Of a DNA stretch of 34,955 nt, positions 14,862-34,101 are shown one piece after another. A program made the translations under genes and the position numbers. Location of the stretch: contig JBFLXS010000007.1 in the NCBI GenBank assembly GCA_040755795.1, positions 1 to 34,955 on the forward strand. The letters are read 5' to 3'. The notes under the pieces are model-generated. The model made no database searches and was not told the origin of the DNA. It saw only the letters and a list, made by a program, of their open reading frames with translations. The stretch's first letter is position 1. Every line of letters begins with the position of its first letter. The DNA is from a bacterium. GTDB taxonomy: Bacteria > UBA9089 > CG2-30-40-21 > SBAY01.

Positions 14862-14882
14862 GAATTTTTACCCCCTTGTGTT

Positions 14883-16235: not shown

Positions 16236-16254
16236 TTAATATCTCCTTATTTTT

Positions 16255-16430: not shown

Positions 16431-16474
16431 ATTTTATTGTATCATAAAACTACCCATTTTGTCAATTTTTTTTA

Positions 16475-17326: not shown

Positions 17327-17356
17327 TTCTCCATTCCTCCATTCCTCCTTCCTTTT

Positions 17357-17444
17357 GGTAAATGGTAACTGGTGAATGGTAATTAGTTACCAATTACCAA
17401 TTACCAATTAACCGATTATTTACTTTTAATTTCGTGAAGCCCTA
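17357..17444. repeat. Heptad palindrome GGTAAAT with tail (copy C), coding the ddl end
   Basis: Units GGTAAAT, GGTAACT, GGTGAAT, GGTAATT, AGTTACC, AATTACC, AATTACC, then AACCGATTA and the tail AATTTCGTGAAGCCCTA. The tail part, read on the minus strand, encodes the last nine residues and the stop of ddl. Confidence 0.8.
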
Positions 17445-18405
17445 ATTTTTTAGGAATAATACTTGAATAAAGCATTTTCAGTATCAGTTCATCATAACTA
17501 ATCCCAACTGCCTTCGCACACGCGGGCAGGTCAGATAAATCCGTTAATCCTGGAATAGTATTAACATCATGCACATAAGGGATACCAATTTTATCTACGA
17601 TTATATCTACCCGTGAAAATCCATGGCAGTTGAGGGCTAAATGTGCCTTTAAAGCCGTCTCTTGAGTTTTACGATAAATATCCTCTGGTAATCTTGCTGG
17701 AATAACGAATTGTGTCATTCCTTGAGTATATTTTGCGTGATAATCATAGAATTCATTTTTTGCCACTAATTCTAAAATAGGTAATGCCTGAATATCATTT
17801 CCACACCCTAATATTCCCACAGTTACCTCTGTGCCGTCAATGAATTCTTCGATAAAGGCATTATTAAATTCTAGCATTATGCCTTCAATAACCTTAAGTA
17901 AATCTTTTCTTTTTTTAACAATCGTTACCCCAATACTTGAACCTTCTGATATTGGCTTTGCTACGACTGGCAGGTCAAAATCTCTTAATACCTGTTCACA
18001 TTGACCAGTTAACTCATTTACGGAATTAAAAACATAATATTTAGGTGTGGGAATATCACAGGCATTAAATATTCTCTTTGAGGCGACCTTATCCATACCT
18101 AATGCAGAAGCCAATACTCCAGAACCAGTATAAGGTATGTCAAGTAATTCCAGTAATCCCTGAACACACCCGTCTTCTCCGTAGCGACCGTGAAGGGCAA
18201 TAAAGGATACATCTATATTCTGGAGTTTATCCAGAAAATCTTTTTCTGCCGGGTCTATGGCTACCGCGACAAGTCCTTGTTTTTGAAGTGAAGATAAGAC
18301 TTTATTCCCGGAACGAAATGACACCTCCCGCTCACGACTCTTACCACCCAACAAAACCCCTATCTTTTTATCTAAAAAGTGTTCTTTCATTTCTACCATT
18401 TCCAT
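17416..18405 (-). CDS. ddl: D-alanine--D-alanine ligase
   Basis: 329 residues, ATP-grasp enzyme joining two D-Ala for the pentapeptide terminus. Motifs: GVLLGGKSREREVSFRSG at the start, HGRYGEDGCVQGLLELLDIPYTGSG, GMDKVASK, EEFIDGTEVTVGIL, FYDYHAKY, and the Mg-binding end HDVNTIPGLTDLSDLP. In that last motif Asp replaces the Glu usual in the E-x-N pair, still able to bind metal. ATG overlaps the murB stop (TAATG), so translation is probably coupled; Met3 and Met6 are alternative starts. The terminal residues LGLHEIKSK are encoded by an intergenic repeat. Confidence 0.94.
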   Translation of the reverse strand: MEMVEMKEHFLDKKIGVLLGGKSREREVSFRSGNKVLSSLQKQGLVAVAIDPAEKDFLDKLQNIDVSFIALHGRYGEDGCVQGLLELLDIPYTGSGVLASALGMDKVASKRIFNACDIPTPKYYVFNSVNELTGQCEQVLRDFDLPVVAKPISEGSSIGVTIVKKRKDLLKVIEGIMLEFNNAFIEEFIDGTEVTVGILGCGNDIQALPILELVAKNEFYDYHAKYTQGMTQFVIPARLPEDIYRKTQETALKAHLALNCHGFSRVDIIVDKIGIPYVHDVNTIPGLTDLSDLPACAKAVGISYDELILKMLYSSIIPKKLGLHEIKSK

Positions 18406-19277
18406 TAAATAATAATAATTTCTTCTTCCAGTCCAATGCCAAATTTATCAAAGACACTTTTTTTTATCTTTGTAATTAAATTTAATATATCCATTGCGGT
18501 TGCCGTGCCATCATTCAGGATGAAATTAGCGTGTTTATTGGAAATATAGGCACCGCCTATTCTTAATCCTTTTAATCCTACATCATCAATTAGTTTTCCG
18601 GCAAAATTTCCTGGTGGATTTTTAAAGATACACCCGGCACTTCTATAACCTTGAGGCTGAGTATCTTTTCTTTTTTGCTTATAATCTTGCAAAACAGTGG
18701 TTATGTGCGAGATTTCGGCTTTTTTTAATAAAATTTCTACCTCTAAAATAACATATTTCCTTAAATTGCTATTTCGGTAGGAAAAACCGCATTCTTTATG
18801 AGATAATTTATTATCGAGTATTTTAACGAAACTAACACAGTCACCAATGGATTTTTCCTGTATTCCTGCATTGCCTATCACGGCACCGCCAATAGTTCCC
18901 GGGATGCCAACTGCAAATTCTAACCCACTCAATCCTCTTTTACAAGTTAGATTAACTAATTTTGGTAGTTCAACTCCTGCACCAGTAATTATCCTGCCGT
19001 TGTCAAGCCATCTTATCTTTTTAAATTCATCCACTAATTTAATAACGACCCCGCGAATTCCCTTATCCGTGACTAAAACATTTGAACCTCCACCTAAAAC
19101 GAAAAACGGTGTCTTAAATTGAGCACACAGGCTTACTACCTGTTTTAATTCCCCCTCATTACCAACCTCTACGAATATATCGGCTAAACCACCGACTTTA
19201 AAATAGGTATGGCAGCTCATTGGCTCGTTAAGTTTAACTTTATTTGTTATTTTCTGAAGTTCTAAAACTAAATTCAT
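18405..19277 (-). CDS. murB: UDP-N-acetylenolpyruvoylglucosamine reductase
   Basis: 290 residues, a type II-sized MurB (no long insertion). FAD-binding motifs: CHTYFKVGGLADIFVEV, FFVLGGGSNVLVTDKGIRGVVI, GLEFAVGIPGTIGGAVIGNAG. The substrate tyrosine/arginine motif is FSYRNSNL. The proton-donor motif reads SAGCIFKNPPG, with Cys where many MurBs have Ser; Cys is also seen in the family. The end AGKLIDDVGLKGLRIGGAYISNKHANFI matches type II enzymes. It reduces enolpyruvyl-UDP-GlcNAc to UDP-MurNAc with NADPH. Confidence 0.96.
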   Translation of the reverse strand: MNLVLELQKITNKVKLNEPMSCHTYFKVGGLADIFVEVGNEGELKQVVSLCAQFKTPFFVLGGGSNVLVTDKGIRGVVIKLVDEFKKIRWLDNGRIITGAGVELPKLVNLTCKRGLSGLEFAVGIPGTIGGAVIGNAGIQEKSIGDCVSFVKILDNKLSHKECGFSYRNSNLRKYVILEVEILLKKAEISHITTVLQDYKQKRKDTQPQGYRSAGCIFKNPPGNFAGKLIDDVGLKGLRIGGAYISNKHANFILNDGTATAMDILNLITKIKKSVFDKFGIGLEEEIIII

Positions 19278-19324
19278 ATTTAATACTTGCCAATTTGATA
19301 AACTTGCAGGTCTTTCCTGAAAAT

Positions 19325-19618
19325 CGGGACTCGGGACTCGGGGTTCGGGATTCGGGAAGGCTGGTAGCCGCAGGCTTCAGCCTGATTTCACCTGAACCAT
19401 CAAACCATCAAACCCATTTTCATCTTCGTTTGTGCTCACTCCCTGTGGGCATGAGCGTTCTCCTGAAAATATCCGCAAGATTTTACCGCAGAGGATACAG
19501 ATTTTTAATTTTTTATCTCCCACGCTGGCGGGATTAAGGGGTTAAGGAATTCTTTTATTCCCGAGTCCCGAGCCCCGAGTCCCGAGTCCCGAGCCCCGAG
19601 TCCCGAGCCCCGAGTCCC
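19325..19618. repeat. GC-rich heptad inverted repeat CGGGACT ... CCCGAGT
   Basis: The left block 19325-19356 is CGGGACT, CGGGACT, CGGGGTT, CGGGATT, CGGG. The right block 19560-19618 is eight perfect heptads alternating CCCGAGT and CCCGAGC plus CCC, ending exactly at the murC stop codon. The blocks are complementary and enclose ~200 nt with a small hairpin CAGGCT-TC-AGCCTG (19371-19384). It fills the 340-nt gap between murC and murB; no gene is seen there. Much more GC-rich than its surroundings. Confidence 0.85.
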
Positions 19619-21025
19619 TTAATTTTCACCCCCTTTGTGTGCCGCAAGGACAGAGCTGTTTCTATATATTTCTATGATTTCTGTTCCTATCTTCCAAACA
19701 TCGCCTGCACCGAGAGTGACAACAACATCATCTGGTTTTGCCACATCCAGTAAAAACTCGATTACCTCTGGAAATGAATTAATAAACATCACCTCTGGAT
19801 AGTCTTGTTTAACCAAACTCTCAACGATTAAAGATGAATCCACACCTGGAATTGGTTTTTCGCCTGCGGGATAAATTGGCGTAACAATGACCACACTTGC
19901 GTCATTAAATGCCTGACCAAATTCCTGGGCTAATGCCTTTGTTCGTGTGTAGCGATGTGGTTGAAATACGGCAATAATTCGTTTTGGTTTTTTATGTTTA
20001 ATTGTGGCTAAAGTTGCTTTTATCTCTGTTGGATGATGGGCATAATCATCGATGATGGTAATTCCATTAACCACCCCTTTAATCTCAAGTCGGCGATGCA
20101 CCCCACCATAACTACTTAAGGCATCCTTGATAACAGATAAATCAATTCCTAATTCCAAACCCACAGCTACGGCGGCTAATGAATTACTCAAATAATGCAC
20201 TCCAGGAATATTAACCCTGATTTTAGTTAATTTTTTATCATTTATCACTAATGTATATTCTGAATAAGAACCGTTAAGCACTACTTCGGTGGCTTTAATC
20301 TGTGCCTCCTGACTCAAACCATAGGATGTCCATTTCCTTTCTATTTTTTCCATTATATCATGGAGATTTGGACAATCCAGACAAAAGATTACCCGTCCAT
20401 AAAACGGCACTTTGTTCATAAATGTAAGAAATGCAAGTTTAATTTCATCTAAATTCTTATAAAAATCAAGGTGTTCACGGTCAATATTAGTTACAACAGA
20501 GATGATGGGCGAAAGTTTTAAGAAACTTCCATCACTTTCATCTGTTTCTGCAACCATATATTCAGAATTACCCAATCGGGCATTACTTCCAATATCGTTA
20601 AATCTGCCGCCAACGACAACAGTTGGGTCGAATTCAGCTTTAGTTAAAATTAATGAAATCATTGAAGTTGTGGTTGTTTTGCCATGTGCGCCGGCAATGG
20701 CAATCCCATATTTAAGCCGCATCAACTCGGCAAGCATCTCCGCACGAGGGATAACTGGTATTCGCTTAGATTTAGCATACGCTACTTCCACATTATCCTC
20801 ACTAACCGCAGAAGAATAAACTACAACATCTACATCTTTAATATTATTAGCATTATGTCCATAATATATTTTTCCACCTAACATTTCAAGCCTTTTTGTG
20901 GTATCACCGGGATGAATATCTGACCCACTTACCTGGCATTTCAGATTTAACAACACCTCAGCAATACCACTCATACCACTACCACCGATACCAATTAAAT
21001 GTATATGTTGGCCTTGTTTAAACAT
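19619..21025 (-). CDS. murC: UDP-N-acetylmuramate--L-alanine ligase
   Basis: 468 residues from the ATG at 21025, which has AAAGAGG upstream and gives the standard N-terminus MFKQGQHIHLIGIGGSGMSGIAEVLL; the frame is open 14 codons further, overlapping the ATPase gene. ATP-binding loop GAHGKTTTTSMISLIL, then SDGSFLKLSPIISVVTNIDREHLDFY, GVHRRLEIKGVVNGITIIDDYAHHPTEIKATL and IAVFQPHRYTRTKAL are Mur-ligase signatures. It adds L-Ala to UDP-MurNAc. The stop codon abuts the CCCGAGT repeat. Confidence 0.97.
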   Translation of the reverse strand: MFKQGQHIHLIGIGGSGMSGIAEVLLNLKCQVSGSDIHPGDTTKRLEMLGGKIYYGHNANNIKDVDVVVYSSAVSEDNVEVAYAKSKRIPVIPRAEMLAELMRLKYGIAIAGAHGKTTTTSMISLILTKAEFDPTVVVGGRFNDIGSNARLGNSEYMVAETDESDGSFLKLSPIISVVTNIDREHLDFYKNLDEIKLAFLTFMNKVPFYGRVIFCLDCPNLHDIMEKIERKWTSYGLSQEAQIKATEVVLNGSYSEYTLVINDKKLTKIRVNIPGVHYLSNSLAAVAVGLELGIDLSVIKDALSSYGGVHRRLEIKGVVNGITIIDDYAHHPTEIKATLATIKHKKPKRIIAVFQPHRYTRTKALAQEFGQAFNDASVVIVTPIYPAGEKPIPGVDSSLIVESLVKQDYPEVMFINSFPEVIEFLLDVAKPDDVVVTLGAGDVWKIGTEIIEIYRNSSVLAAHKGGEN

Positions 21026-21056
21026 CCTTGCTACCTCTTTTGTGTAAAAATATTTC

Positions 21057-22184
21057 TTATATAACAATTTCTTTTACAAATGATTTAATATATTCTTTAA
21101 ATAAAGGGTCGCTTAATTCATATTGACCTTTATCTATTTTTTTCAAATAGCCTAACATTTCTAATTGAGATGTAATGTAATAAATCTGTTGTCGTTCTAA
21201 GTGGCGCAAATTATATGGGTTAGAATTACCTGAGGCGATAAAGCGGATTACTTCTAAAAAATTCTTCTTTGTTTTAAGTTTCTCCCATATTTGTTCAAAA
21301 TATACTCTTTCAGTATTCAATGCTTCCTGGATGGCAATATCAATATCTTCTTTATTGATTGTTTGCCCATTTCTTAATAAGTAAATATTTTGGCAGAGTA
21401 ATTGAGTATAGTAAGGATGTCCCCAAACCCTATCAATTATCTCACCAGCGAGTTCATCGGAGATAATGATATTTTCCTGGGAAAACTTAGATATAATATA
21501 CTTAACTAAAGGTGCTTTAGGAAGTAAATCTAAATGGATAACTCGAGCAAATCTGAAAAATGCAGATTTAGAATTAGAGAATAAGTTAATCATAATACTT
21601 TCTTGACTTCCAGAGAAAACATAGACTACCTTTTCTTGCATTTGAAGTATTGCCCGCATCCTCTTTATTAACATCTCTCCATTTAGTTTAACTAAATCCC
21701 CAAATTCATCATAGACCATTAATAAATTAACATTATTTTTACTTGCATAATCTTCTGGAAATTGTAATGCCTCATCAAGTAACATTAATTCGTCTATCTT
21801 AGTTTCTCCGAATTTTAATATAAACTCGAAATCTTCGATTATCTGTTTAAATTCTATTCGCTTCATCCATTGACTTAATCCTTCTTTAATTGTTTTAACA
21901 AACTGACTAATTTTTTTATTTTCTATAACCGTATCTACAATCTTTTCAGCAAGTTCCTGTTTAGATATGACTCTAAATATATCTACATACCCACAAAGAT
22001 ATTTTTCTTGTTTTATCCTCTGGATAACTTCTAAGACTAAAGATGTCTTTCCATATCTTCGAGGAGCAATAATCGCAACACTTTGTCCAATTTTAAGCAA
22101 TTGACAAATTTTTTCAATCTCTTTTTCACGACCGATTAAGTCATCTCCCCTAACCGGAATACCCACAGGGAAAAGTCTCTTCAT
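21057..22184 (-). CDS. AAA/STAND-type ATPase with C-terminal winged helix, inserted in the dcw cluster
   Basis: 375 residues of the archaeal-type ATPase_2 kind. LIGREKEIEKICQLLKIG leads into Walker A PRRYGKTSL (41-49). Walker B LLMVYDE is at 154-160, and a sensor-like FSGSQES follows. The lid region contains GHPYYTQLLCQNIYLL, typical of this family. The C-terminal part (about 300-375) looks like a winged helix (RQQIYYITSQLEMLGYLKKI). Such proteins are usually stand-alone genes linked to mobile DNA or signalling, with no known cell-wall role. It replaces the usual direct murG-murC junction, is co-directional with good AAGGAG spacing, and its stop lies inside the open frame upstream of murC. 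Function unknown. Confidence 0.8.
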   Translation of the reverse strand: MKRLFPVGIPVRGDDLIGREKEIEKICQLLKIGQSVAIIAPRRYGKTSLVLEVIQRIKQEKYLCGYVDIFRVISKQELAEKIVDTVIENKKISQFVKTIKEGLSQWMKRIEFKQIIEDFEFILKFGETKIDELMLLDEALQFPEDYASKNNVNLLMVYDEFGDLVKLNGEMLIKRMRAILQMQEKVVYVFSGSQESIMINLFSNSKSAFFRFARVIHLDLLPKAPLVKYIISKFSQENIIISDELAGEIIDRVWGHPYYTQLLCQNIYLLRNGQTINKEDIDIAIQEALNTERVYFEQIWEKLKTKKNFLEVIRFIASGNSNPYNLRHLERQQIYYITSQLEMLGYLKKIDKGQYELSDPLFKEYIKSFVKEIVI

Positions 22185-22202
22185 CCTACACTCCTTTCTT
22201 CT

Positions 22203-22532
22203 GGTAATTGGTAACTGGTGAATGGTAATTAGTTACCAGTTACCATTTAACCGATTACTTACTTTGTAAGCGTTCAGGTGGTGTAACAAAAGGAGATGTG
22301 GAGATTAAGGAGATAGGGAGATATTATTAAAAAAATTGAAAATTAATAGAAACTAATAGAAATTTATGGAAATTTGTTGTTTTCCACAATCAATTTCTAC
22401 CTATTTCTATAAATTTCAATCTATTTCTATTATCTTATCTCCATATCACTCTTATCTCCTTATCCCCTTTCGGACACTTTTGATATATAGCCTGGACGGT
22501 TACCTTACTTTATAATTTCGTGAAGCCCTATT
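22203..22532. repeat. Heptad palindrome with tail (copy D), split by MITE copy 3
   Basis: GGTAATT, GGTAACT, GGTGAAT, GGTAATT, AGTTACC, AGTTACC, then AACCGATTA. After the MITE the copy resumes with the tail AATTTCGTGAAGCCCTATT (22514-22532). Without the MITE it is the same length as copies A and C, which shows that the heptad family was present before the MITE arrived. Confidence 0.85.
22266..22503. mobile_element. MITE copy 3, 8-bp TSD CTTACTTT
   Basis: 238 bp. Left end GTAAGCGTTCAGG; right end read inward GTAACCGTCCAGG. Perfect duplications CTTACTTT at 22258-22265 and 22504-22511. The interior has complementary GGAGAT / ATCTCC word arms, unlike copies 1 and 2. No ORF. Confidence 0.92.
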
Positions 22533-22580
22533 AAGTAATATTCTACAAACAGAACACATCGACGAGGTTAATCTTTCTAT

Positions 22581-23654
22581 TTAATTTCGAGAAACCCTAT
22601 TTAAGGAATAAATAATATTAACCACATTTTGAGATGCATCTGCCGTTTTAAGCGGCTGATAATTTTCAGCCATTATTTTGAGTTTATCACGATTTTCGAT
22701 TAATTCAATAATAATCTTGCCTATATTTTCAGATGATAGTTCTCTATCTTTTATCATTATTGCCGTTCCTTTTTCCACCAGAGGTCTGGCGTTATATTCC
22801 TGATGGTTATCTGTGGCATAGGGATATGGGATTAAAATTGCTGGCAAATTACAAGCAATAATTTCCGCGATGGTTGTTGCTCCGGCTCGACAGATAACCA
22901 AATCTGCCACTTGATACGCTACGGGTAAATCATAAAAAAACTTTTCAACGACTATTTTTACTTTTGATTTTGTTTCCTTTATGAATTGATAATCTTCCTC
23001 CCCGGTTGCCCAAATTATTTGTATTTTATCATCCGGGAGAAGATTTAGTGTTTGTTTCATCACCTCATTAATTTTATGTGCCCCTTTGCTTCCGCCAAAG
23101 ACAAGCAAGGTAAATTTATCTCCACTTATCTCAAATCTCTTTAGTGCCTCCTGTCTATTTATCTGTCCAATCTGTAATCTAACTGGATTGCCTGTTAGCA
23201 CGGTTTTTTTCGCGGGTAGAAATCGATTAGAATCGGCAAAACTAATGGCTATTTTATCGACAAATTTAGCCAGCAAGCGAGTGGCTTTACCAGGAATAAA
23301 ATTTTGCTCATGAATAACGGTTTTAATCTTAAATAAGACTGCTCCTAAAACTACCGGAACTGAGGCATAACCTCCCATTCCCAGAACAATATCTGGTTTA
23401 AACTCTATAATATACCTTATCCCGACCAAAAAGGTTTTTATTAGTTTAATGAAAAACTTAATTTTATTTTTTACGGTCCAGCCTTCGACATCAAGCCCTT
23501 TAAATTTAAACCCTTGTTTTTGGATGACATCTGACTCAATCCCTTTTGTGGTACCTATAAATAAAATCTCGGTTTCTTGTTTTAATCTCTCGGCAATTGC
23601 CAGAGCCGGGTAGATATGTCCTAATGTCCCGCCGCCTGTAATTATAATCCGCAT
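22581..23654 (-). CDS. murG: UDP-GlcNAc:lipid I GlcNAc transferase MurG
   Basis: 357 residues, GT28 family. N-terminal glycine loop GGGTLGHIYPALAIAE, second loop VLGMGGYASVPVVLGA, HEQNFIPGKATRLLA, third loop FGGSKGAHKINE, and the donor-binding region CRAGATTIAEIIACNLPAILIPYPYATDNHQEYNA are all present. It makes lipid II at the cytoplasmic membrane face. The last residues NRVSRN and the stop are encoded by a solo copy of the conserved tail (TTAATTTCGAGAAACCCTATT-like, 22581-22602) of the heptad repeat family. Confidence 0.96.
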   Translation of the reverse strand: MRIIITGGGTLGHIYPALAIAERLKQETEILFIGTTKGIESDVIQKQGFKFKGLDVEGWTVKNKIKFFIKLIKTFLVGIRYIIEFKPDIVLGMGGYASVPVVLGAVLFKIKTVIHEQNFIPGKATRLLAKFVDKIAISFADSNRFLPAKKTVLTGNPVRLQIGQINRQEALKRFEISGDKFTLLVFGGSKGAHKINEVMKQTLNLLPDDKIQIIWATGEEDYQFIKETKSKVKIVVEKFFYDLPVAYQVADLVICRAGATTIAEIIACNLPAILIPYPYATDNHQEYNARPLVEKGTAIMIKDRELSSENIGKIIIELIENRDKLKIMAENYQPLKTADASQNVVNIIYSLNRVSRN

Positions 23655-23675
23655 TTTACCCTATGCCTCTTCTAC

Positions 23676-24800
23676 CTACTGATGCAATCTACTGGTAAAT
23701 GATTGTTGTAACGAATACTTAGCGATATTTAAAATAATTCCTACTCCAATCATATTAATAAGTAAAGATGAACCGCCAAAACTAATAAAAGGTAATGGCA
23801 TTCCTGTTGTTGGAACTACGCCTGTAACGACACCGATATTGAGAAGTGATTGCAGGATAATTAAAGCCGTTATCCCAAATGCCAATAATGAACCATAAGC
23901 ATCTGCGGCTAAAAGACTAATTTTTAATCCCGCAAAGGCAAATAGTACAAATAGAATGATAACAAAGGCTGTTAGTAAAAATCCACCTTCTTCGCCGATG
24001 ACCGCAAAGATGAAATCTGTGGATGATTGAGGCAAGTAAAATAATTTTAACTTACCTTCACCTAATCCCTGTCCATATAGTCCTCCAGAACCTAAGGCAA
24101 TTAATGACTGAATAATGTGGTAACCTTTATGCTCGGGGTCTGCCCAGGGGTTTAAAAATACCATTAATCTTCTGGCTCGATATGGAGCACATTGAATTAA
24201 AAAATAAACTGTTGGAATAGCCAATAATACCAGCGCTATTAAATATTGCATCCTACACCCGCCGACAAATAAAATAGCCATTGTCGCCATACCTAAAAGA
24301 ACAACCATTCCCAGATGAGGTTGTTTTAATAGAATTACGGAAACAAGTCCTAAAAGTAACAAAGGGGGCAGAAATCCTTTAAAAAGCCCCTGAAATTCTT
24401 TTCCTCGACGAACTATAAAATCAGTCAAATAAATGATAAAGATAATTCTCATTAATTCTGATGGTTGAAAACTTATAAACCATATTTTTAGCCATCTTGT
24501 TGCCCCACTTATCTCATATCCTATTCCAGGGATGATAGTCAGGCTAATTAAACATACCCCAAAAAGAAACAATTGCCAACTTTTCTCTTGTAACTTATGA
24601 TAATTAAATTTCCAGGCACAAAAAAGTCCAATTAGCCCCATTGTCACCCAGATAAGTTGTCTTTTAAAAAAATAATATGTGTCACCAGTATGTTGTTTAG
24701 CAAAGATAGCACTGGAACTATAAATCATCAACACACCAATCCCCACCAGGGTAATCGTGATTAAAAATAATGCAATATCCACTCGTGATTTTGACGCCAT
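23676..24800 (-). CDS. ftsW: Septal lipid II polymerase FtsW (SEDS family)
   Basis: 374 residues with about ten membrane helices. Signatures: MIYSSSAIFA near the N-terminus, ISGATRWLKIWFISFQPSELMRI, KQPHLGMVVLLG, GHGLGEG-equivalent YGQGLGEGKLKLFYLPQSSTDFIFAVIGEEGG, and NIGVVTGVVPTTGMPLPFISFGGSSLL. SEDS proteins polymerise glycan with a partner class B PBP; that partner (FtsI) is not encoded in this cluster. Classical position between murD and murG. Strong AAGGAGG ribosome binding site. Confidence 0.95.
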   Translation of the reverse strand: MASKSRVDIALFLITITLVGIGVLMIYSSSAIFAKQHTGDTYYFFKRQLIWVTMGLIGLFCAWKFNYHKLQEKSWQLFLFGVCLISLTIIPGIGYEISGATRWLKIWFISFQPSELMRIIFIIYLTDFIVRRGKEFQGLFKGFLPPLLLLGLVSVILLKQPHLGMVVLLGMATMAILFVGGCRMQYLIALVLLAIPTVYFLIQCAPYRARRLMVFLNPWADPEHKGYHIIQSLIALGSGGLYGQGLGEGKLKLFYLPQSSTDFIFAVIGEEGGFLLTAFVIILFVLFAFAGLKISLLAADAYGSLLAFGITALIILQSLLNIGVVTGVVPTTGMPLPFISFGGSSLLINMIGVGIILNIAKYSLQQSFTSRLHQ

Positions 24801-24825
24801 ATAATCCTCCTTGAGTGATTAGTAG

Positions 24826-26193
24826 TCAGTGAACAGTTTTACTTCCTATTCTTGCTACTTCTTCCTTGAATACTCGCCCTCTTTCTTCATAGTTTTTAAA
24901 CATATCATAACTTGAGCAGGCGGGTGAAAAAAGGATAGTATCCTTTGGTTTAGATAGTTTATATGCTAATTCAACTGCCTCGTGTAAATTCTGGACTTTA
25001 AAGATATTATCAAAATGGACACCTTGAGCGATTTTATCCTTTGCTTCACCCAACAAAATCAATGTCTTTACTTTTGCTGATAACAAAGGGTCTAGTCGGC
25101 TATAGTCACATCCTTTGCTTCGACCACCAGCAATTAAAATAATTGGTTTATTAAAACTTTGCAAGGCAACAATGACTGAATCAACATTGGTTGCCTTTGA
25201 ATCATTAATAAACCGTATGCCGTTAATACAAGCCACCTCTTCTATGCGGTGTTCGACCCCTTTAAATTCTCTTAATGTCTTTCTGACCACCTCTAAATTA
25301 ATTTTAAGAATAGCACTTACTCCCAGAGCCGATAGGACATTCTGGAGATTGTGAGGTCCGATTAAGGCTATATCTTGAGTTTTGCATATCTCATTTTCTT
25401 CTCCTTCAAATCGGCTAACAATCTGATTTCCTTTTAGAAAGATACCGTTTTCAAAGTCTTTTTTAATCAGACTGAAAAAAATTGGTTTAGCCTTAGATTG
25501 TTGACTTACCTCCATAATACTTGAATCATCTGCATTTAGAACCATAAAATCATCTTTAGTTTGATTCTCAAAGATTCTTGCTTTTATTTTCAAGTAATCA
25601 TTCAGGTCTTTATGTCTATCAAGGTGGTCTGGGGTAAAATTTAAAAAAACACTGATATTGGGTCTAAAATCTTTTATGGTTTCTAATTGAAAACTGCTTA
25701 TTTCTACAACCACAAGATAATCTTTGTCAATTTTATCTATTGCCTCGGATAATGGATAACCGATATTGCCGGCGACGGTAACTTTTTGGTCAGCCGTTTT
25801 TAAGATTTCGCCAATTAATGTTGTAGTCGTTGTTTTGCCATTTGTCCCGGTAACCGCAATCACCCGATTTTGTGGTAAAAATTGATAGGCTAATTCCATT
25901 TCTGAGATAATCGGGATACCCAATTTTTTCGCCTTTTGTAAAAATGGAATCTCTACAGGAACTCCTGGACTGACAACGATTAATTCACAGTGGGGTAAAA
26001 AGTCTTCCTTATGTTCGTCTGTTTCTATTTCTATGTCTAAATTTTTTAATTGAGTAATTTCGTTTTGCAATTGTGAGGCTGGTTTTGAGTCAGAGATTTT
26101 TACCTTTGCCCCATATTTAAGTAACAATTTAGCCGCTGACAAACCGCTTCTCGCCATGCCAACAATAATTATTCTTTTATCTTTAATATTCAT
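24826..26193 (-). CDS. murD: UDP-MurNAc-L-Ala--D-Glu ligase
   Basis: 455 residues from the ATG at 26193 (MNIKDKRIIIVGMARSGLSAAKLLLKYGA, the standard MurD opening). An upstream GTG in frame lies in MITE sequence and is rejected. ATP loop AVTGTNGKTTTTTLIGEIL, FLNFTPDHLDRH, EGVEHRIEEV-type FKGVEHRIEEVACINGIRFINDSKATN, ILIAGGRSKGCDY, and the ending LFSPACSSYDMFKNYEERGRVFKEEV all match. It adds D-Glu to the stem peptide. The stop and last residues fall in a heptad arm (AGTGATT, AGTAGTC, AGTGAAC; 24814-24834). The ribosome binding site is weak, perhaps because the MITE lies just upstream. Confidence 0.96.
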   Translation of the reverse strand: MNIKDKRIIIVGMARSGLSAAKLLLKYGAKVKISDSKPASQLQNEITQLKNLDIEIETDEHKEDFLPHCELIVVSPGVPVEIPFLQKAKKLGIPIISEMELAYQFLPQNRVIAVTGTNGKTTTTTLIGEILKTADQKVTVAGNIGYPLSEAIDKIDKDYLVVVEISSFQLETIKDFRPNISVFLNFTPDHLDRHKDLNDYLKIKARIFENQTKDDFMVLNADDSSIMEVSQQSKAKPIFFSLIKKDFENGIFLKGNQIVSRFEGEENEICKTQDIALIGPHNLQNVLSALGVSAILKINLEVVRKTLREFKGVEHRIEEVACINGIRFINDSKATNVDSVIVALQSFNKPIILIAGGRSKGCDYSRLDPLLSAKVKTLILLGEAKDKIAQGVHFDNIFKVQNLHEAVELAYKLSKPKDTILFSPACSSYDMFKNYEERGRVFKEEVARIGSKTVH

Positions 26194-26207
26194 TTTCGTT
26201 CTTTTCT

Positions 26208-26394
26208 TGCAACCGTTCACCGCACAGACACAGAGACGCAGAGAAGAAAATTAAAAACTATTTACCAGATGCTTCATTCCATTCCTGATTTTCATCATGA
26301 TTGCACCAATAATCTTTTCTGTTATCTGATTTATTTCTATATCTTCTCTGTAAACTCTTACGTCTCTGCGGTAAATTACCACCTAAACGGTTAC
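26208..26394. mobile_element. MITE-like element between mraY and murD, TSD decayed
   Basis: About 187 bp with ends GCAACCGTTCACCG and, read inward from the right, GTAACCGTTTAGG. Subterminal ACCGCA/CAGAGACGCAGAG words are complementary. Flanking octamers match at only 5 of 8 positions, so it is older or rearranged. Its right end touches the mraY stop codon and its left end is 15 nt from the murD start. Confidence 0.75.
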
Positions 26395-26396
26395 CC

Positions 26397-27494
26397 TTAC
26401 CTTAATTTCAAGGTACTTAAACTTAACAAGGTAAATATCCCGGCAATAATCCAGAATCTCACAATAATCTTTGGTTCACTCCAGCCTTTTTTCTCGAAGT
26501 GATGATGTAGAGGCGCCATATTGAATATTCGGCGTTTAGTCAATTTCATCGAACCAACTTGAAGAATAACCGATAAAGCCTCAATCACAAATAATCCGCC
26601 GATGATTACTAATAATAATTCATTTTTAATCAAGACAGCCGCTGTCCCAAGTATACCACCCAGAGCCAATGAGCCGGTATCGCCCATAAATACCTCTGCA
26701 GGATAGGCATTGTACCACAAAAAACCAATGGATGCTCCAATCAAGGCGGCAAGATAAATAGTTATCTCTCCTGCACCACTGACATAGATTATCTTTAGAT
26801 AATGGGCGAATTTAAAGTGCCCGGCAAAATATGAGGCACCGACAAAACCAATTGCCGCAAATATTACCGCACCAATCGCCAGTCCATCCAGACCATCGGT
26901 TAGATTAACCGCATTGGAAGTGCCAACTATGACCAAAATGACAAATGGAATATAAAACCAACTTATATCTACCGGTGCTCCTTTAAAAAAAGGAATAGAA
27001 AGGGAAGTCCCATACTGCGAATGTATCGGATGATAGCACAGATAAATTGCCAACATAGATGCCAGGATAACCTGACCACTAAATTTATACTTAGCGACTA
27101 AACCTTCAGACCTTTGTTTGACTAATTTCAGGTAATCATCTATAAATCCAATTAGACCTAAACCTACGGTCATTTCTATAATTATCCAGGTAAATCGAAT
27201 ATCAAACCGCAACCAGAGAATTGAAGATACAACTAACGCAATTAGAATGATTATCCCTCCCATAGTTGGGGTTTCAGCCTTATGAATATGATTTTGGAGG
27301 TATTCTTTGCGAATGACTTGCTTAATATGTTTTTGCTTTAATTTTTTGATAATAAATGGAGCGATAATTAAAGATATGACTAACGCCGTGATAGCGGCAT
27401 AAGCCGCCCGGAAGGTAATATATTTAAAAACCCTGAAGATGGAAAAACAAGTCTCTGGTTCGTATAACCATTCATAAAATATATGATAAAGCAT
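26397..27494 (-). CDS. mraY: Phospho-MurNAc-pentapeptide translocase MraY
   Basis: 365 residues, about ten membrane helices. Signatures: KAETPTMGGIIILIALV, GFIDDYLKL with the catalytic DD pair, NLTDGLDGLAIG, FMGDTGSLALGG, and the HHHFEKKGWSEPKIIVRFW histidine loop. It transfers phospho-MurNAc-pentapeptide to undecaprenyl phosphate, making lipid I. Classical position between murF and murD. AGGAGGGG ribosome binding site. Confidence 0.97.
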   Translation of the reverse strand: MLYHIFYEWLYEPETCFSIFRVFKYITFRAAYAAITALVISLIIAPFIIKKLKQKHIKQVIRKEYLQNHIHKAETPTMGGIIILIALVVSSILWLRFDIRFTWIIIEMTVGLGLIGFIDDYLKLVKQRSEGLVAKYKFSGQVILASMLAIYLCYHPIHSQYGTSLSIPFFKGAPVDISWFYIPFVILVIVGTSNAVNLTDGLDGLAIGAVIFAAIGFVGASYFAGHFKFAHYLKIIYVSGAGEITIYLAALIGASIGFLWYNAYPAEVFMGDTGSLALGGILGTAAVLIKNELLLVIIGGLFVIEALSVILQVGSMKLTKRRIFNMAPLHHHFEKKGWSEPKIIVRFWIIAGIFTLLSLSTLKLR

Positions 27495-27514
27495 TTTTTC
27501 CCCTCCTTTTGTTT

Positions 27515-27555
27515 GGTAACTGGTAATTGGTAACTGGTAATTGGTAATTAGTTAC
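27515..27555. repeat. Heptad array GGTAACT/GGTAATT (copy E), holds murF stop
   Basis: GGTAACT, GGTAATT, GGTAACT, GGTAATT, GGTAATT, AGTTACC. It lacks the conserved tail seen in copies A-D. The murF reading frame enters it, giving the last residues GN and the TAA stop. Confidence 0.8.
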
Positions 27556-28897
27556 CTAATCCTTCTACCACTTCCTCTAATTTCATTCTCCTTGACCCTT
27601 TCACCAGAATAATATCTTCTAACTGAATGAGTTTTTTTAATTTAGAGATTATCTCATCATTAGAACCACATTTATAAACCTCTACCCCTCTTCTACAAGC
27701 CTCATCAGCAGATAAAGAGGCATTGTCTCCAATTGTAAATAAAATATTAATCCCATAATTGGCAATTTCTTTTCCTGTTGTTTGATGAAAAGATTGACTT
27801 AAGTCGCCCAGTTCCAACATATCACCCATAACCAGAATCTTTCGACCATCAGTTTGAATTTGACTTAATGTTTCAAGAGCACATTTCATTGAAGTGGGAT
27901 TGGCATTATAGGCATCATTAATAATTTTTGTCCCGCCTGGTAAAGAACTTAATTCCATTCGACCATAAGGTGTTTTTAACTCACCATATCCTTTTTCAAT
28001 CTCTTCAAAAGTCAATCCGAGGGCATAAGCAATCGCCGTTGCCGCTAAAATATTATAAACATTATGTCTTCCTAAAATAGGGATTGAGAGATGATAACGA
28101 TTATTCAAAGTGAACTCGACTCCATTCATATTCTGATGCAGATTCTGGGCAGTAATATCCGCTTCATTATGAATACCATAGGTAATTAATTTGCCATTAA
28201 ATTTTATTTTACTCAGATATACATCATCACGATTTAAAATAGCGATACCAGCAGGCTCTAAAATTTTCATTTTTTCGCTGGCGATATTTTCCTTTGTTTT
28301 CAGATAACCGATGTGAGATTCGCCAATATTGGTAATCAGAGCAACCGTCTGGTTAGCAATTTCTGAGAGATATTTTATCTCACCGGGATGATTCATACCT
28401 ATTTCCAGAATCGCGGCCTGGGTCGTCTTATTTAGTTCAAACAGGGTTAATGGAACTCCAATAGCATTATTAAAACTACTTTTGCTTCTCAGGGTATTAA
28501 TTTTTTTTGCAAGAAGTGTGACTGCCATTTCCTTAGTCGTGGTTTTACCATTACTGCCGGTAATGGCGACTACTGGTATTTTGAATTTCTGGCGATAATA
28601 AGCGGCTATTTTCCCCAGAGCAACTAATGTGTCGGTTACCTTGATAATGGTAATCGGTAATCGGTAATCGGTAATCGGTATCTCTTTAGATATTATTAAG
28701 CCACTGGCTTGTTTTTGCATCACCTCCTCAATAAAATTATGTCCATCAAACTTATCCCCTTTAAGGGCAATGAATAGGTCACCTTCACTGATTTGTCTTG
28801 AATCCGTAGAAATATCAGGAATCCAGGTATCTTTATTCCCTGAAAGTAATTTACCTTTTGTTACTTGTAATATCTCATCTACCTTGATTGGTTCCAT
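27548..28897 (-). CDS. murF: UDP-MurNAc-tripeptide--D-Ala-D-Ala ligase, with in-frame heptad insert
   Basis: 449 residues. N-terminal domain STDSRQISEGDLFIALKGDKFDGHNFIEE, ATP loop AITGSNGKTTTKEMAVTLL, NAIGVPLTLFEL, LEIGMNHPGEI, NIGESHIGYL, IINDAYNANPTSMKCALETL and VMGDMLELG are all MurF signatures. It adds D-Ala-D-Ala to complete the pentapeptide. Between the N-terminal domain strands (about residues 74-84) there is PITDYRLPIT, encoded by four tandem GGTAATC heptads (28649-28680). Since 7 is not a multiple of 3, the array reads as a heptapeptide PITDYRL that begins to repeat. It sits in a surface loop before IIKVTDTLVALG, so the enzyme is probably active. Confidence 0.95.
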   Translation of the reverse strand: MEPIKVDEILQVTKGKLLSGNKDTWIPDISTDSRQISEGDLFIALKGDKFDGHNFIEEVMQKQASGLIISKEIPITDYRLPITIIKVTDTLVALGKIAAYYRQKFKIPVVAITGSNGKTTTKEMAVTLLAKKINTLRSKSSFNNAIGVPLTLFELNKTTQAAILEIGMNHPGEIKYLSEIANQTVALITNIGESHIGYLKTKENIASEKMKILEPAGIAILNRDDVYLSKIKFNGKLITYGIHNEADITAQNLHQNMNGVEFTLNNRYHLSIPILGRHNVYNILAATAIAYALGLTFEEIEKGYGELKTPYGRMELSSLPGGTKIINDAYNANPTSMKCALETLSQIQTDGRKILVMGDMLELGDLSQSFHQTTGKEIANYGINILFTIGDNASLSADEACRRGVEVYKCGSNDEIISKLKKLIQLEDIILVKGSRRMKLEEVVEGLGN

Positions 28898-28911
28898 TCA
28901 ATACCTTTTTT

Positions 28912-28967
28912 CCCAAAATAGTAGAAAGTAGAGAGTAGAAAGAAAGAATCTCTCTACCCTCTACTAT
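28912..28967. repeat. Heptad palindrome GTAGAAA type at murE end
   Basis: Left arm GTAGAAA, GTAGAGA, GTAGAAA (28921-28941), right arm CTCTCTACC and CTCTACTAT. The boundary AAAATAG matches the copies at 1781 and 13389. It overlaps the murE stop and lies just upstream of the murF ribosome binding site. Confidence 0.75.
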
Positions 28968-30423
28968 AAACTATTTACTAAAAAAGTTTCTACTATTTCT
29001 CTATCATCAAAATGTATTGTTTTATCTTTAAATATCTGGTAAGTCTCATGTCCTTTACCAGCAATGAGTATCAGGTCTCCTTGTTTTGCGTAATCTAATG
29101 CCTTAGTGATGGCTTGATTTCGGTCGATTACCACTTCGTATGCCTTACCTCCAATTCCTGCCTTAATTTCTTTAATAATCGCCTCCGGGTCTTCATTTCT
29201 TGGATTATCACTGGTAATTATCGTCCAATTACTCAGGTCTGTGGCGATTTTACCCATTTGTGGTCTTTTCTCTCTATCTCTATCTCCGCCACAACCAAAA
29301 ATAGTAATAATTCTTTTTGGATTAAGTCTTTTAGCTGATAATATCACATTTTGTAATCCGTCCGGGGTATGGGCATAATCAATGACTACGGTAAAATCCT
29401 GTCCTTTTTCAACCAATTCAAATCTGCCTCTAACTCCAGATAAACTCTCAACGCCTTGTTTAATGGTTTGAATGTCTATTCCCTCAACTAACCCATATCC
29501 AATAGCCGCTAAGGCATTATAAACATTATACCCTCCTACTAACTTTAAATTTATCTGACTCGCCGTCCGTTTTAGTTCTGGATAGTAAAAAAAAAAGAGG
29601 TATTTTTCTTTGTTGACATAACCTTTTCGGCATAGATTTGTGCCTTATCAGATAATCCATAGGTAATTGTTTTGGCACAGGTATTGGCGATAATCTCCTG
29701 GCTGTGGGCGTCGTCTAAATTAATTATTGCTATCCCTTGAGGCTTTAATTCTTTAAATAATTTTATTTTCGCGGTTAAATAATTATCCATAGTCTTATGG
29801 AAATCTAAGTGGTCTTGGGTGAGATTAGTAAAGATAGCATAATCGAAGTCACAATTTGCGGTTCGAGAAAGGGCTAAGGCATGAGAGGAAACTTCCATAA
29901 CGACATGAGTTGCGGCATTTTCTACTGCCTGGCAGAACATTTGTTGTAATTCTAATGCCTCTGGAGTAGTCTGTCCTGCAGGAATTTCTAATTCGCCTAT
30001 TTTATAACTAATCGTCGAAAAACGAGCCGGTTTATAGCCTGCAGTTTTTAAAAGGGATTCAATAAGATAAGCAATGGTGGTTTTACCATTAGTTCCAGTA
30101 ATACCAATTAATTGAAATTTTGAAGACGGAGAATCATAGAAGGTATCTGCGATTATGGAAGTTGCCTGGCGAGTATCCGTGACTTTGATATAAGTTACCG
30201 CGGATAAAATCGGAACATCCTCACATACCAGAATGGCTTTTGCCCCTTTTCCAATGGCTTCCTCAATATAATTATGCCCATCAACCCGAAACCCTTTTAT
30301 ACAGATAAATAAAGACCCAAAAACTACATTTTTCGAAGAAGTGGTAAGGTGGGTTATTTCAACATCTTTATTGCCAATAATTTGCTTTTCTTTTAATTTA
30401 GAGACTAACTTTTGTAAATTCAT
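28964..30423 (-). CDS. murE: UDP-MurNAc-L-Ala-D-Glu--meso-DAP ligase, split by frameshift at a T10 run
   Basis: As sequenced, the frame from 30423 stops at 29572-29574. A run of ten T (minus strand; 29587-29596) precedes the stop. A -1 shift, or one extra T, restores an unbroken ~486-residue MurE: the joined frame continues YYPELKRTASQINLKLVGGYNVYNALAAIG and on to DYAHTPDGL. Motifs: ITGTNGKTTIAYLIESLL, TTPEAL, EVSSHALALSRT, FTNLTQDHLDFH, and DNPRNEDP (about residues 390-400), the DNPR signature of meso-DAP-adding enzymes. GKGHETYQ near the end is also typical. It adds meso-DAP to the stem peptide. Loss would be lethal, so the cause is either a sequence error or slippage during transcription or translation. 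Ribosome binding site: a G-rich stretch 7 nt upstream. Confidence 0.9.
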
Positions 30424-30463
30424 TAATTCCCCCCAGATTTTTTACCAATACTTCACTACTCCA

Positions 30464-30922
30464 TTACTCCACTCTCCTTTTACTCCACGCCTCGGCTTTG
30501 TTAAGTTTGAAAAAGTTTATTCCGAATTTAAAAAGATTAATCGGTTTATTTTCAACTAAATACTGAGGTTGTGGTAAACAGACAATTTTAACCTCATCCG
30601 GGATAGTTAATCCCATCTGTCTTGCCATATTATCAATTCTGTCCGGCGAACGCAAACTTGAAATATCGACTAAAAGCATCCTTTGGAAATTCTCTAATTG
30701 ATGCACTTTATTTTGAAGCAGAGATATGGTATAACCCATTGAGGTAATATGAATTTGGGTAAATACCCACATAAATCCGACTATAAATATTCCTATAATT
30801 GTCGATAAATAACTCCTGACAACTTTTTTTATTTCAGCTTTACGATGCCTTCCAAGTAGAACTATCAATTTATCCCCCTTCTTCTGAAACATATGCCAAT
30901 AGGCTATTGCAATATCAGTCAT
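30464..30922 (-). CDS. ftsL: FtsL-like division protein
   Basis: 152 residues. Basic cytoplasmic N-terminus, one membrane helix (about 38-58, SYLSTIIGIFIVGFMWVFTQIHI), then a coiled coil (60-90, ISLLQNKVHQLENFQRMLLVDI) and RIDNMARQMGLTIPDEVKIV, which fits the FtsL ending. Sequence is poorly conserved in this family, so the call rests on topology and position after rsmH. It would form a complex with FtsQ and FtsB. The next gene is murE only 40 nt on: no ftsI lies between. GGGAGGG ribosome binding site. Confidence 0.75.
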   Translation of the reverse strand: MTDIAIAYWHMFQKKGDKLIVLLGRHRKAEIKKVVRSYLSTIIGIFIVGFMWVFTQIHITSMGYTISLLQNKVHQLENFQRMLLVDISSLRSPDRIDNMARQMGLTIPDEVKIVCLPQPQYLVENKPINLFKFGINFFKLNKAEAWSKRRVE

Positions 30923-30941
30923 TTTTTCCCTCCCTTTTTTT

Positions 30942-31020
30942 GGTAATTGGTAACTGGTAATTGGTAACTGGTAACTGGTAACTGGTAATTAGTTAGCAAT
31001 TAACCGATTAGTTGCTTTTA
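30942..31020. repeat. Heptad array GGTAATT/GGTAACT (copy F)
   Basis: Seven successive GGTAAYT units, then AGTTAGC, AATTAACC and the ACCGATTAGTTG part of the conserved tail. It is the longest one-sided array of this family. It lies between rsmH and the ftsL ribosome binding site. Confidence 0.8.
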
Positions 31021-31065
31021 TCGTCCTTAATTTTAATATCGACATAAATGGTGTATAACTAAAGA

Positions 31066-31944
31066 CTAAGTTTTTTCGATTACCCTGAGTTTTGCACTTC
31101 TTGCTCGCGGATTAACTTTTCTCTCCTCGTAAGTTGGTCTAATTGGACTTTTAGTTATAATTTTAGCTAATCCTTCCTTTGCCCATTTACGAAATTTGTG
31201 TTTCACAAGACGGTCTTCAAGTGAATGAAATGAAATAACTAAAAGTCTTCCGCCTGTTTTTAATAATAATATCGCCTTATCTAATGATTCATCCAGGACA
31301 TCTAATTCCTGATTAACCGCTATTCTTAATGCTTGAAATACCTTTGTTGCTGGATGAATATTTTTATATCCGATAATCGGTTCAATGACCTTGATTAGTT
31401 CAAATGTTGTGTGGATTGGTCTGTTTTTAACAATTGCCTGAGCTATTTTCTCTGCCCGATGTTCCTCACCATATTTTAATATAATCTCTTTTAATTGATT
31501 TACCGACAGGGAATTAACTAAATCTTTAGCCGTAACCTTATTTCTTAAATCTAACCGCATATCTAAATCCGCATCAAATCTAAAACTAAACCCGCGTGTT
31601 TTTGACTCAAAATGAACTGAACTTACACCTAAATCATATAAAATACCATTAACAGAATCAATAGAGGCAGAAGCTCCCCCCCTTATTAAAATGGAATTGG
31701 CTAAAATCTCTTTTATGTTTTTAAAATTATCGTGAACAAAAATAATATTCTTCGGACCTAATCTCTTCTTAGCTATCTCCAAAATCTCCCCATCCTGCTC
31801 AATACCTATAATCTTACCACCCTTTTGTAAAATCGCCTCTGAGTGTCCTCCTTCACCTAAGGTGCAATCGATATAAATACCATCAGGTTTAACTTGTAGA
31901 TATTCTAATATCTCATTTAATAATACAGGGATATGAGTATTCAC
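31066..31944 (-). CDS. rsmH: 16S rRNA m4C1402 methyltransferase RsmH
   Basis: 292 residues, formerly MraW. It opens THIPVLLNEILEYL, then the SAM loop YIDCTLGEGGHSEAIL and IGIEQDGEILEIAKKRL. Mid-region LYDLGVSSVHFESKTRGFSFRFDADLDMRLD and the end LVISFHSLEDRLVKHKFR, then the PIRPTYEERKVNPRARSAKLRVIEK tail, are diagnostic. It methylates N4 of C1402 in the ribosomal P site. GTG start with a weak ribosome binding site. Second gene of the cluster. Confidence 0.96.
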   Translation of the reverse strand: MNTHIPVLLNEILEYLQVKPDGIYIDCTLGEGGHSEAILQKGGKIIGIEQDGEILEIAKKRLGPKNIIFVHDNFKNIKEILANSILIRGGASASIDSVNGILYDLGVSSVHFESKTRGFSFRFDADLDMRLDLRNKVTAKDLVNSLSVNQLKEIILKYGEEHRAEKIAQAIVKNRPIHTTFELIKVIEPIIGYKNIHPATKVFQALRIAVNQELDVLDESLDKAILLLKTGGRLLVISFHSLEDRLVKHKFRKWAKEGLAKIITKSPIRPTYEERKVNPRARSAKLRVIEKT

Positions 31945-31950
31945 TCTTTT

Positions 31951-32008
31951 AGTAGCGAGTAGTGAGTAACGAGTATCTAGGGAAATATATATTTCCCTTA
32001 CTACTGGC
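31951..32008. repeat. Heptad palindrome AGTAGCG type with 18-bp perfect centre
   Basis: Left units AGTAGCG, AGTAGTG, AGTAACG, AGTATCT. The centre is a perfect palindrome GGGAAATATATATTTCCC (31980-31997). The right arm is a looser complement. It is in the mraZ-rsmH gap, followed by a further AGTAGTGAG fragment near 32052. Confidence 0.75.
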
Positions 32009-32092
32009 TACTCACTTCTCGCCATCTCCTTATCCCCTCCCAGTTTCTATTAGTAGTGAGTCGTGGCTATATATTCTTCCCTCACTACTTTC

Positions 32093-32533
32093 TTAAATTC
32101 CCAGGTCTAAATTTTCGACATTTTCTTCATAAGTTTGCGAGATAGATTTGTAATGTTCTATCCAGACATCTTTATCCCATATCTCCATTTTTTCTATAAG
32201 TCCAATAATAATTATTTCTTTGGTTAAATTAGCCAGCTGGCGAAGTTTTGGAGGAATATTAAGCCTTCCTTGCTCATCTATTGAACATTCCATAGCATCT
32301 GCACAAAATTTACGAATAAAATTCCGCACCTCTTTCTTGCCCGTAGGTATTTCTTTAATCTTTTCTAATGTCTTAAACCATTCATCCGGAGGATAAGCCG
32401 ATAAACAATTTCCCACTCCAGAAGTAATAATTATCTTCTTTATTCCCTTTTCCTCCAGCACCCGCCGATATGAAGCCGGCATAATCACCCGACCTTTTTC
32501 ATCTATGGTATGAGAATATTCCCCGACGAACAT
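32093..32533 (-). CDS. mraZ: Transcriptional regulator MraZ
   Basis: 146 residues from the ATG at 32533 (MFVGEYSHTIDEKGRVIMPASYR, the standard opening). A GTG six codons upstream is in frame, but that codon is part of the GGAGG ribosome binding site. Two SpoVT/AbrB-like repeats each carry the DNA-binding DExGR motif (DEKGRV and DEQGRLNIPPKLRQLA). MraZ forms a ring and represses its own operon by binding TGGGN-type repeats upstream. First gene of the dcw cluster. Confidence 0.95.
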   Translation of the reverse strand: MFVGEYSHTIDEKGRVIMPASYRRVLEEKGIKKIIITSGVGNCLSAYPPDEWFKTLEKIKEIPTGKKEVRNFIRKFCADAMECSIDEQGRLNIPPKLRQLANLTKEIIIIGLIEKMEIWDKDVWIEHYKSISQTYEENVENLDLGI

Positions 32534-32535: not shown

Positions 32536-32560
32536 TCCCATTTTCCTCCACTTTGTTCCA
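32536..32560 (-). promoter_or_regulatory. Predicted MraZ operator: three TGG boxes, 10-nt period
   Basis: On the minus strand TGGAA (32560-32556), TGGAG (32550-32546) and TGGGA (32540-32536) are exactly 10 nt apart. In other bacteria MraZ binds TGGGN boxes separated by 5 nt, just downstream of the mraZ promoter. The middle box also reads AAAGTGG, like the mollicute MraZ box. It overlaps the ribosome binding site. Confidence 0.7.
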
Positions 32561-32572
32561 ATGTCTTACTAT

Positions 32573-32600
32573 TTTATACCTACGCGTAGATTTTTGTCAA
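32573..32600 (-). promoter_or_regulatory. Promoter of the dcw cluster with palindromic spacer
   Basis: -35 TTGACA (32600-32595), 16-nt spacer, -10 TATAAA (32578-32573), predicted start near 32566. The spacer contains a perfect 10-bp palindrome CTACGCGTAG (32580-32589), a possible second operator. Confidence 0.75.
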
Positions 32601-32731: not shown

Positions 32732-32761
32732 TTGACATTTTAGTTATAAATAGGATATAAT
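32732..32761 (+). promoter_or_regulatory. Sigma70-type promoter of aroA
   Basis: Perfect hexamers TTGACA (32732-32737) and TATAAT (32756-32761) with an 18-nt spacer. The start would be near 32768, giving a leader of ~38 nt. Confidence 0.85.
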
Positions 32762-32805: not shown

Positions 32806-34101
32806 ATGGAATATTTAGAGATTACACCGACAAATAAATTAAGAGGAACAATTACCGTTCCTGGAGACAAGTCTATTTCCCATCGGGCAGTGATGCTTGG
32901 TGCTCTGGCTCAAGGCAAGACTACGGTTGAAGGTTTTTTGTTAGGAGAGGATTGTTTAAATACCATTAAGGCATTTCAATCACTCGGCATAGAGATAGAA
33001 AGAGATAATGCCTGTTTAACTATTTTGGGTCAGGGACTAAATGGTTTACAAAAACCCGGTGGGTTAATTGATGTTGGTAATTCAGGAACAACAATGAGAT
33101 TACTCCTGGGGGTATTGGCAGGGCAGAGATTTGATAGTTGTCTGAGTGGTGATGAATCGATAAAAAGGCGGCCGATGCGTCGTGTGATTGAACCACTGTC
33201 ACAAATGGGAGCAAAAATTGAGGCAAAAGAAGGCAATTTTGCACCACTGACAATTTTTGGGAATCCGGGACTTAAGCCAATTCGGTATCTTTTACCTATT
33301 GCCTCGGCTCAGGTAAAATCTGCTATTTTGTTAGCCGGGCTTTTTACCGACGGCGTTACGACGGTCATAGAACCAATGTCCTCACGCGACCATACCGAGC
33401 GGATGTTAAATTTCTTTGGGGCACAAATTATAAAAGATGATTTCAGTATTTCTATTACAGGTAATGTTCCGTTAAGAGGTGAAAGGCAGATTAAAATACC
33501 CGGTGATATTTCATCAGCGGCATTTTTTATCGTTGCGGCTTGTTTAGTTAAAGATGCAAAGATAAGACTTTTGAATCTCGGCATTAATCCTACTCGAATA
33601 GGGATAATCGATGTCTTAAAAAAAATGGGCGCTAATATCACCATTGAAAATCAAGAACTGGTCTGTGGTGAACCTGTAGCAAATATTCTTGTTAAATCAA
33701 GTTCCTTGAAAGCCACTTCAATTGCCGGAGCAATGATTCCAAAATTAATTGATGAACTCCCTATTCTAACTGTCGCAAGTTGTTTAGCCACTGGTAGAAC
33801 TGAAATTCGGGAGGCAAAAGAATTACGAGTCAAAGAAACAGACCGAATAAAGTCTATGACCACTGAATTAAATAAAATGGGAGCAAAGGTTATTGAGGTA
33901 GAAGATGGATTAATCATTGAGGGTGTCCAGAGACTCACTGGAGCAGAGGTAGAATCTTATGGCGACCATCGCACCGCAATGTCCTTAGCCATCGCCGGCT
34001 TAGTTGCTCATGGCAAAACTAAAATCAATAATATAGATTGTATCCAGACATCATTTCCGGAATTTGAGCAGATATTGAAACAAGTAGTGCCCTGTCGTTG
34101 A
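32806..34101 (+). CDS. aroA: 3-phosphoshikimate 1-carboxyvinyltransferase (EPSP synthase)
   Basis: 431 residues, usual length. Substrate motifs: PGDKSISHR (Lys22, Ser23, Arg27), GNSGTTMRLLLG, RRPMRRVIEPL, SAQVKSAILLAG, then SRDHTERML, PGDISSAAFF, IDELPILTVASCLATG with the catalytic Asp/Glu region, RVKETDRI and SYGDHRTAMSLAIAG. It joins shikimate-3-phosphate and PEP in aromatic amino acid synthesis. It diverges from mraZ and has its own strong promoter; start ATG after GTGAGG. No intrinsic terminator is evident after the stop. Confidence 0.97.
   Translation: MEYLEITPTNKLRGTITVPGDKSISHRAVMLGALAQGKTTVEGFLLGEDCLNTIKAFQSLGIEIERDNACLTILGQGLNGLQKPGGLIDVGNSGTTMRLLLGVLAGQRFDSCLSGDESIKRRPMRRVIEPLSQMGAKIEAKEGNFAPLTIFGNPGLKPIRYLLPIASAQVKSAILLAGLFTDGVTTVIEPMSSRDHTERMLNFFGAQIIKDDFSISITGNVPLRGERQIKIPGDISSAAFFIVAACLVKDAKIRLLNLGINPTRIGIIDVLKKMGANITIENQELVCGEPVANILVKSSSLKATSIAGAMIPKLIDELPILTVASCLATGRTEIREAKELRVKETDRIKSMTTELNKMGAKVIEVEDGLIIEGVQRLTGAEVESYGDHRTAMSLAIAGLVAHGKTKINNIDCIQTSFPEFEQILKQVVPCR

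Follow-up and report, generated by a model that had tools for sequence, protein, structure and literature searches.

A conserved MraZ operator of three 10-nt phased boxes precedes the dcw cluster of an uncultivated bacterial lineage

Genes and promoter at the mraZ locus

The window, i.e. the whole stretch of 34,955 nucleotides that was analysed, harbors on its minus strand a dcw cluster headed by mraZ (Table 1). Downstream of mraZ and in the same direction follow rsmH, an ftsL-like gene, murE (split), the gene of a murF-type ligase, mraY, murD, ftsW, murG, an ORF encoding an AAA-type ATPase, murC, murB, ddl, an ftsQ-like gene, ftsA and ftsZ. mraZ is single-copy in the 4.7-Mb genome and its product scores 135 bits against TIGR00242 (curated cut-off 98). 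Pfam MraZ matches two stretches of the chain, corresponding to the two SpoVT/AbrB-like repeats of the family, and both D-x-x-x-R type motifs are retained (DEKGR and DEQGR). The protein is similar to the solved MraZ chains 1n0e and 9qlg, and by analogy to these relatives it probably forms a ring-shaped oligomer.

Table 1. Coordinates of features at the mraZ promoter and in the dcw cluster
Feature	Position	Strand	Remarks
-35 element TTGACA of mraZ	32595..32600	-	from sequence; invariant across genus, family and order
-10 element TAAAAT of mraZ	32571..32576	-	spacer 18 nt; aligns with TAATAT of the sister genus
Palindrome CTACGCGTAG	32581..32590		perfect, 10 bp; in the -35/-10 spacer of mraZ
MraZ box 1 TGGAA	32556..32560	-	7-mer ACATTGG, two mismatches to AAAGTGG; 5.4 bits, weakest
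MraZ box 2 TGGAG	32546..32550	-	7-mer AAAGTGG, exact consensus; 11.6 bits
MraZ box 3 TGGGA	32536..32540	-	7-mer AAAATGG, one mismatch to AAAGTGG; 10.3 bits
Shine-Dalgarno GGAGG	32545..32549	-	from sequence; 11 nt before the mraZ ATG
mraZ	32093..32533	-	ATG 32533-32531; 146 aa; TIGR00242
mraZ-rsmH gap	31945..32092		148 nt
Inverted repeat in the gap	31955..32022		near-perfect, 34-nt arms; RNA fold z -7.1; GTG start of rsmH ~11 nt further on
Co-directional dcw genes downstream of mraZ	13710..31944	-	
ftsL-like ORF to murE	30423..30464		ftsI absent
murE, two ORFs	28964..30423		single frameshift near a T-rich run
ATPase_2/AAA-type ORF	21057..22184		375 aa; between murG and murC
aroA	32806..34101		divergent
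aroA promoter TTGACA-18-TATAAT	32732..32761		perfect; ~170 nt upstream of the MraZ boxes

The mraZ promoter is a strong one of the sigma-70 type (score 11/12), and an alternative -10 element, TATAAA with a 16-nt spacer, overlaps TAAAAT. The predicted transcription start is located about 31 nt before mraZ, placing the boxes at about +4 to +28. Along the minus strand TAAAAT is followed by 10 nt, TGGAACAAAG, TGGAGGAAAA and TGGGAAA ATG, so that the box region reads TGGAA-CAAAG-TGGAG-GAAAA-TGGGA-AA-ATG. The sequence-only reading had placed three TGG boxes in 10-nt phase between the -10 element and the mraZ start, overlapping the ribosome binding site, and these positions proved exact: the TGG starts at 32560, 32550 and 32540 follow each other in steps of precisely 10 nt, and the GGAGG lies within box 2 plus the adjoining 3′ base. 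The locus thus combines the features of known MraZ operators, namely at least three direct repeats with a 10-nt period, an AAAGTGG-like 7-mer, a box position downstream of the -10 element near the predicted start site, and a cognate mraZ gene directly downstream that heads the dcw cluster.

As to the box sequences, the earlier claim that one box fits the mollicute form holds for box 2, which is exactly AAAGTGG; a small correction concerns the TGGGN form. The MraZ boxes of E. coli are strictly TGGGN; unlike these, the host boxes, to which binding of MraZ is predicted, read TGGAA, TGGAG and TGGGA, and box 3 is the only one to fit the strict form.

A GTG at 32551 lies in frame and would, if used as the mraZ start, put boxes 2 and 3 within the coding region. 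It was rejected because it is not conserved as a start: the sister genus has this GTG in a different frame, and its ATG is immediately preceded by a TAG stop. The palindrome in the promoter spacer has one base changed in the same-genus genome and is absent from the sister genus.

Three further observations concern the cluster itself. murE is broken where KKNTSFFFTIQN runs into a stop in one frame while FFFYYPELKRTASQINLKLVGGYN continues in another, which may reflect a sequencing error, a true break or slippage. Transpeptidase-domain matches in the genome are found only on other contigs (C44, C64 and C66); the 598-aa protein of C44 could be FtsI or PBP2, since it contains both a PBP_dimer and a Transpeptidase domain. 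The AAA-type ORF weakly matches a family of anti-phage proteins.

Phase and sequence of the boxes compared with chance

TGG might arise accidentally in a leader that is rich in A and carries a Shine-Dalgarno GGAGG, and the Shine-Dalgarno sequence does account for part of box 2. The pattern TGGN7TGGN7TGG occurs twice in the window versus 0.22 expected, the second copy being located inside ftsW; the bare triple is therefore modest evidence, and its count was rejected as proof. With four A positions added, the triple occurs a single time in the 4.7-Mb genome, at the mraZ site. As this core pattern was derived from that very site, more weight is carried by a phase test and by a box model.

The phase test comprised the mraZ upstream regions of 49 genomes, 18 of the host phylum and 31 others. 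TGG pairs 10 nt apart were found 83 times, versus 3.3±1.8 (maximum 9) in dinucleotide shuffles, and are thus 25 times over chance before mraZ across phyla. Distances of 9 and 12 nt occurred three times and twice, respectively, which is background, and a distance of 11 nt eight times. No 10-nt TGG phase was detected on the opposite strand of the same 49 regions. At least two in-phase boxes are present in 43 of the 49 genomes and at least three in 28, compared to 0.06 genomes expected by shuffling. The identification of the site as an MraZ operator, as proposed from the sequence, is strongly supported by these counts.

The box model is a position model built from 76 boxes of other phyla only, in which the TGG core is fixed by construction while the A-tract and the G are not. 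It yields AAAGTGGGAA, with the consensus AAAG TGG GAA. Applied to the window, it gives the mraZ site 27.2 bits, the highest score among 69,852 triple positions; the best unrelated place reaches 13.3 bits. Of the 76 boxes of the other phyla, 32 have a G directly after TGG, and the strict TGGGN form consequently does not define the MraZ-box family.

An accidental origin is refuted by the phase test, and both the top rank of the site in a model built independently from other phyla and the conservation of the boxes in the same-genus genome speak against it as well; it retains next to no probability.

A search of the genome allowing three mismatches to the consensus triple did not reveal a wider MraZ regulon. 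The one additional match, on contig C175, has a middle box that is not in register; three matches came from the reversed control of the same search.

Conservation of the operator in relatives

In the same-genus genome (G001) all three boxes are kept, and within them only the final base of box 1 differs (TGGAA to TGGAG). The sister genus (G002 and G003), whose MraZ is 79-80% identical, retains the promoter together with boxes 2 and 3, while box 1 is replaced by ATCCA or TCCCA and a TGG box is present at the -10 element instead. TGGAGG, comprising box 2 and the ribosome site, is invariant in the family and the order. The earlier proposal had been to look for a conserved 10-nt phase of TGG before mraZ in relatives, and such a phase is present in G001 and in the 49-genome test. 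It had further held that loss of the boxes in close relatives under retention of the promoter would speak against an operator; box 1 has indeed been lost in this manner in the sister genus, whereas boxes 2 and 3 stay there and all three stay in G001.

Across the phylum the box offsets from the -35 element recur at 18, 28, 38-39, 48-49 and 58-59 nt, the -10 element falling between the first and the second of these slots. The boxes of the window lie 40, 50 and 60 nt from the -35 element and occupy slots 3 to 5, which are shifted because the promoter spacer is 1 nt longer; slots 1 and 2 contain AGG and TAG. In family f2 the boxes at the -10 element are kept, and farther downstream the steps become less regular (9-11, then 14, then 7-8 nt; three of four genomes). 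Since the boxes of the relatives keep their offsets from the -35 element despite box losses, the operator can be described as a conserved lattice in which individual boxes appear and disappear. Tentatively, and with somewhat more doubt than confidence, the phylum may be described as sharing about five promoter-locked slots in which boxes are lost and regained in phase, the operator of the host genus having moved from the -10 element towards the leader and ribosome site under an unmoved promoter. If this description holds, one MraZ ring could repress via different sets of contacts.

Control of the dcw cluster by MraZ

What the sequences establish directly is the presence of the boxes, their 10-nt phase, the geometry of the promoter, a cognate mraZ gene and conservation across phyla. 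On these grounds the site is very probably a canonical MraZ operator of the dcw promoter, bound by MraZ in order to limit MraZ itself and the genes downstream. Against this assignment stand the weakness of box 1 and its loss in the sister genus, as well as the two of three boxes that are not strictly TGGGN.

In E. coli, according to PMC7761207 and PMC8475190, MraZ binds repeats downstream of the -10 element and represses its own cluster. The host site resembles E. coli Pmra (Eraso et al. 2014, cited in PMC7761207 and PMC8475190) in its repeated boxes downstream of the -10 element before mraZ and in having mraZ at the head of the dcw cluster. The transcription start is located 38 bp before mraZ in E. 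coli (PMC7761207) and about 31 (predicted) in the host, and the host boxes differ from Pmra in overlapping the ribosome site. In Burkholderia cenocepacia purified MraZ binds a fragment with four 7-nt repeats separated by 3-nt spacers, which as in E. coli lie downstream of the -10 element, over the start site (PMC7761207). PmraBc and the host site share the 10-nt period and this location; B. cenocepacia, however, has four repeats and a start 100 bp before mraZ, whereas the host has three repeats and a short leader. In Mycoplasma genitalium AAAGTG[T/G] repeats are found only before mraZ (PMC8475190). Host box 2, AAAGTGG, agrees with the mollicute site AAAGTG[T/G] (Fisunov et al. 2016, cited in PMC8475190), while boxes 1 and 3 deviate from it, and common to mollicutes and the host is that box repeats occur in the genome only at the mraZ promoter.

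By position of the boxes and by analogy to E. coli, autorepression of the dcw cluster is plausible. An MraZ ring, produced from the first gene of the cluster, would bind the three boxes on one face of the DNA, as their 10-nt step suggests, occupy the transcription unit from about +4 to about +28 and hinder RNA polymerase in opening or leaving the promoter. With the polymerase hindered at the promoter, MraZ would limit its own synthesis as well as that of the division and cell-wall genes downstream. We infer the binding of MraZ, the geometry of the ring on the host DNA and repression rather than activation, the latter being favored by the placement of the boxes at the predicted +4 to +28.

The sign of control is nevertheless not certain, since PMC7761207 mentions an activating role of MraZ in some mycoplasmas. 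As has been reported for Mycoplasma gallisepticum, the same operator might accordingly serve to activate the cluster, and boxes alone leave the sign undefined. This appears improbable at the host promoter, where the boxes are positioned downstream of the -10 element over the start site and a bound ring should block polymerase; moreover, with 11/12 the promoter is already so near to consensus that no activator should be needed. For mollicutes both signs have been reported, and deletion of mraZ in M. genitalium, which raises the expression of mraW, MG_223 and ftsZ, indicates repression (PMC8475190).

Still less credit can be given to an additional block of early translation, which the sequence-only reading had considered possible and which did not find support. 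Such a block would act on the transcribed boxes, of which box 2 holds the ribosome binding site, and the GGAGG in and beside box 2 fits it. Yet MraZ is a double-stranded DNA binder and is not known to bind RNA. In 16 of 37 genomes no more than 25 nt separate the last box from the start, and in the others the distance is larger, mostly 30-60 nt; given this variation, the overlap of box and ribosome site seems to reflect a compact leader rather than a mechanism. Furthermore, no RNA structure beyond chance was detected in the mraZ leader (z -0.41).

A reach of the operator over the dcw cluster is plausible because the genes from mraZ through ftsZ share one direction, and no terminator-like site was found between mraZ and rsmH. 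The gap between these two genes contains a large hairpin, formed by the inverted repeat, which lacks a U tract and might loosen the link between mraZ and the genes behind it. In G001 and G003 the gap holds different, unrelated repeat-like DNA in which the contigs end, and in family f2 it measures about 30 nt. Small repeats seem to have inserted here repeatedly.

The host site is a real, conserved and ordinary MraZ operator of a well-known kind, which leaves the existing knowledge of MraZ unchanged. Through it, one of the most widespread autoregulatory sites of bacteria is extended to a further, uncultivated lineage, and the comparison across phyla cleanly measures how MraZ boxes are phased (10 nt) and what their consensus is (AAAGTGGGAA), showing as well at which places an individual box may drop out.
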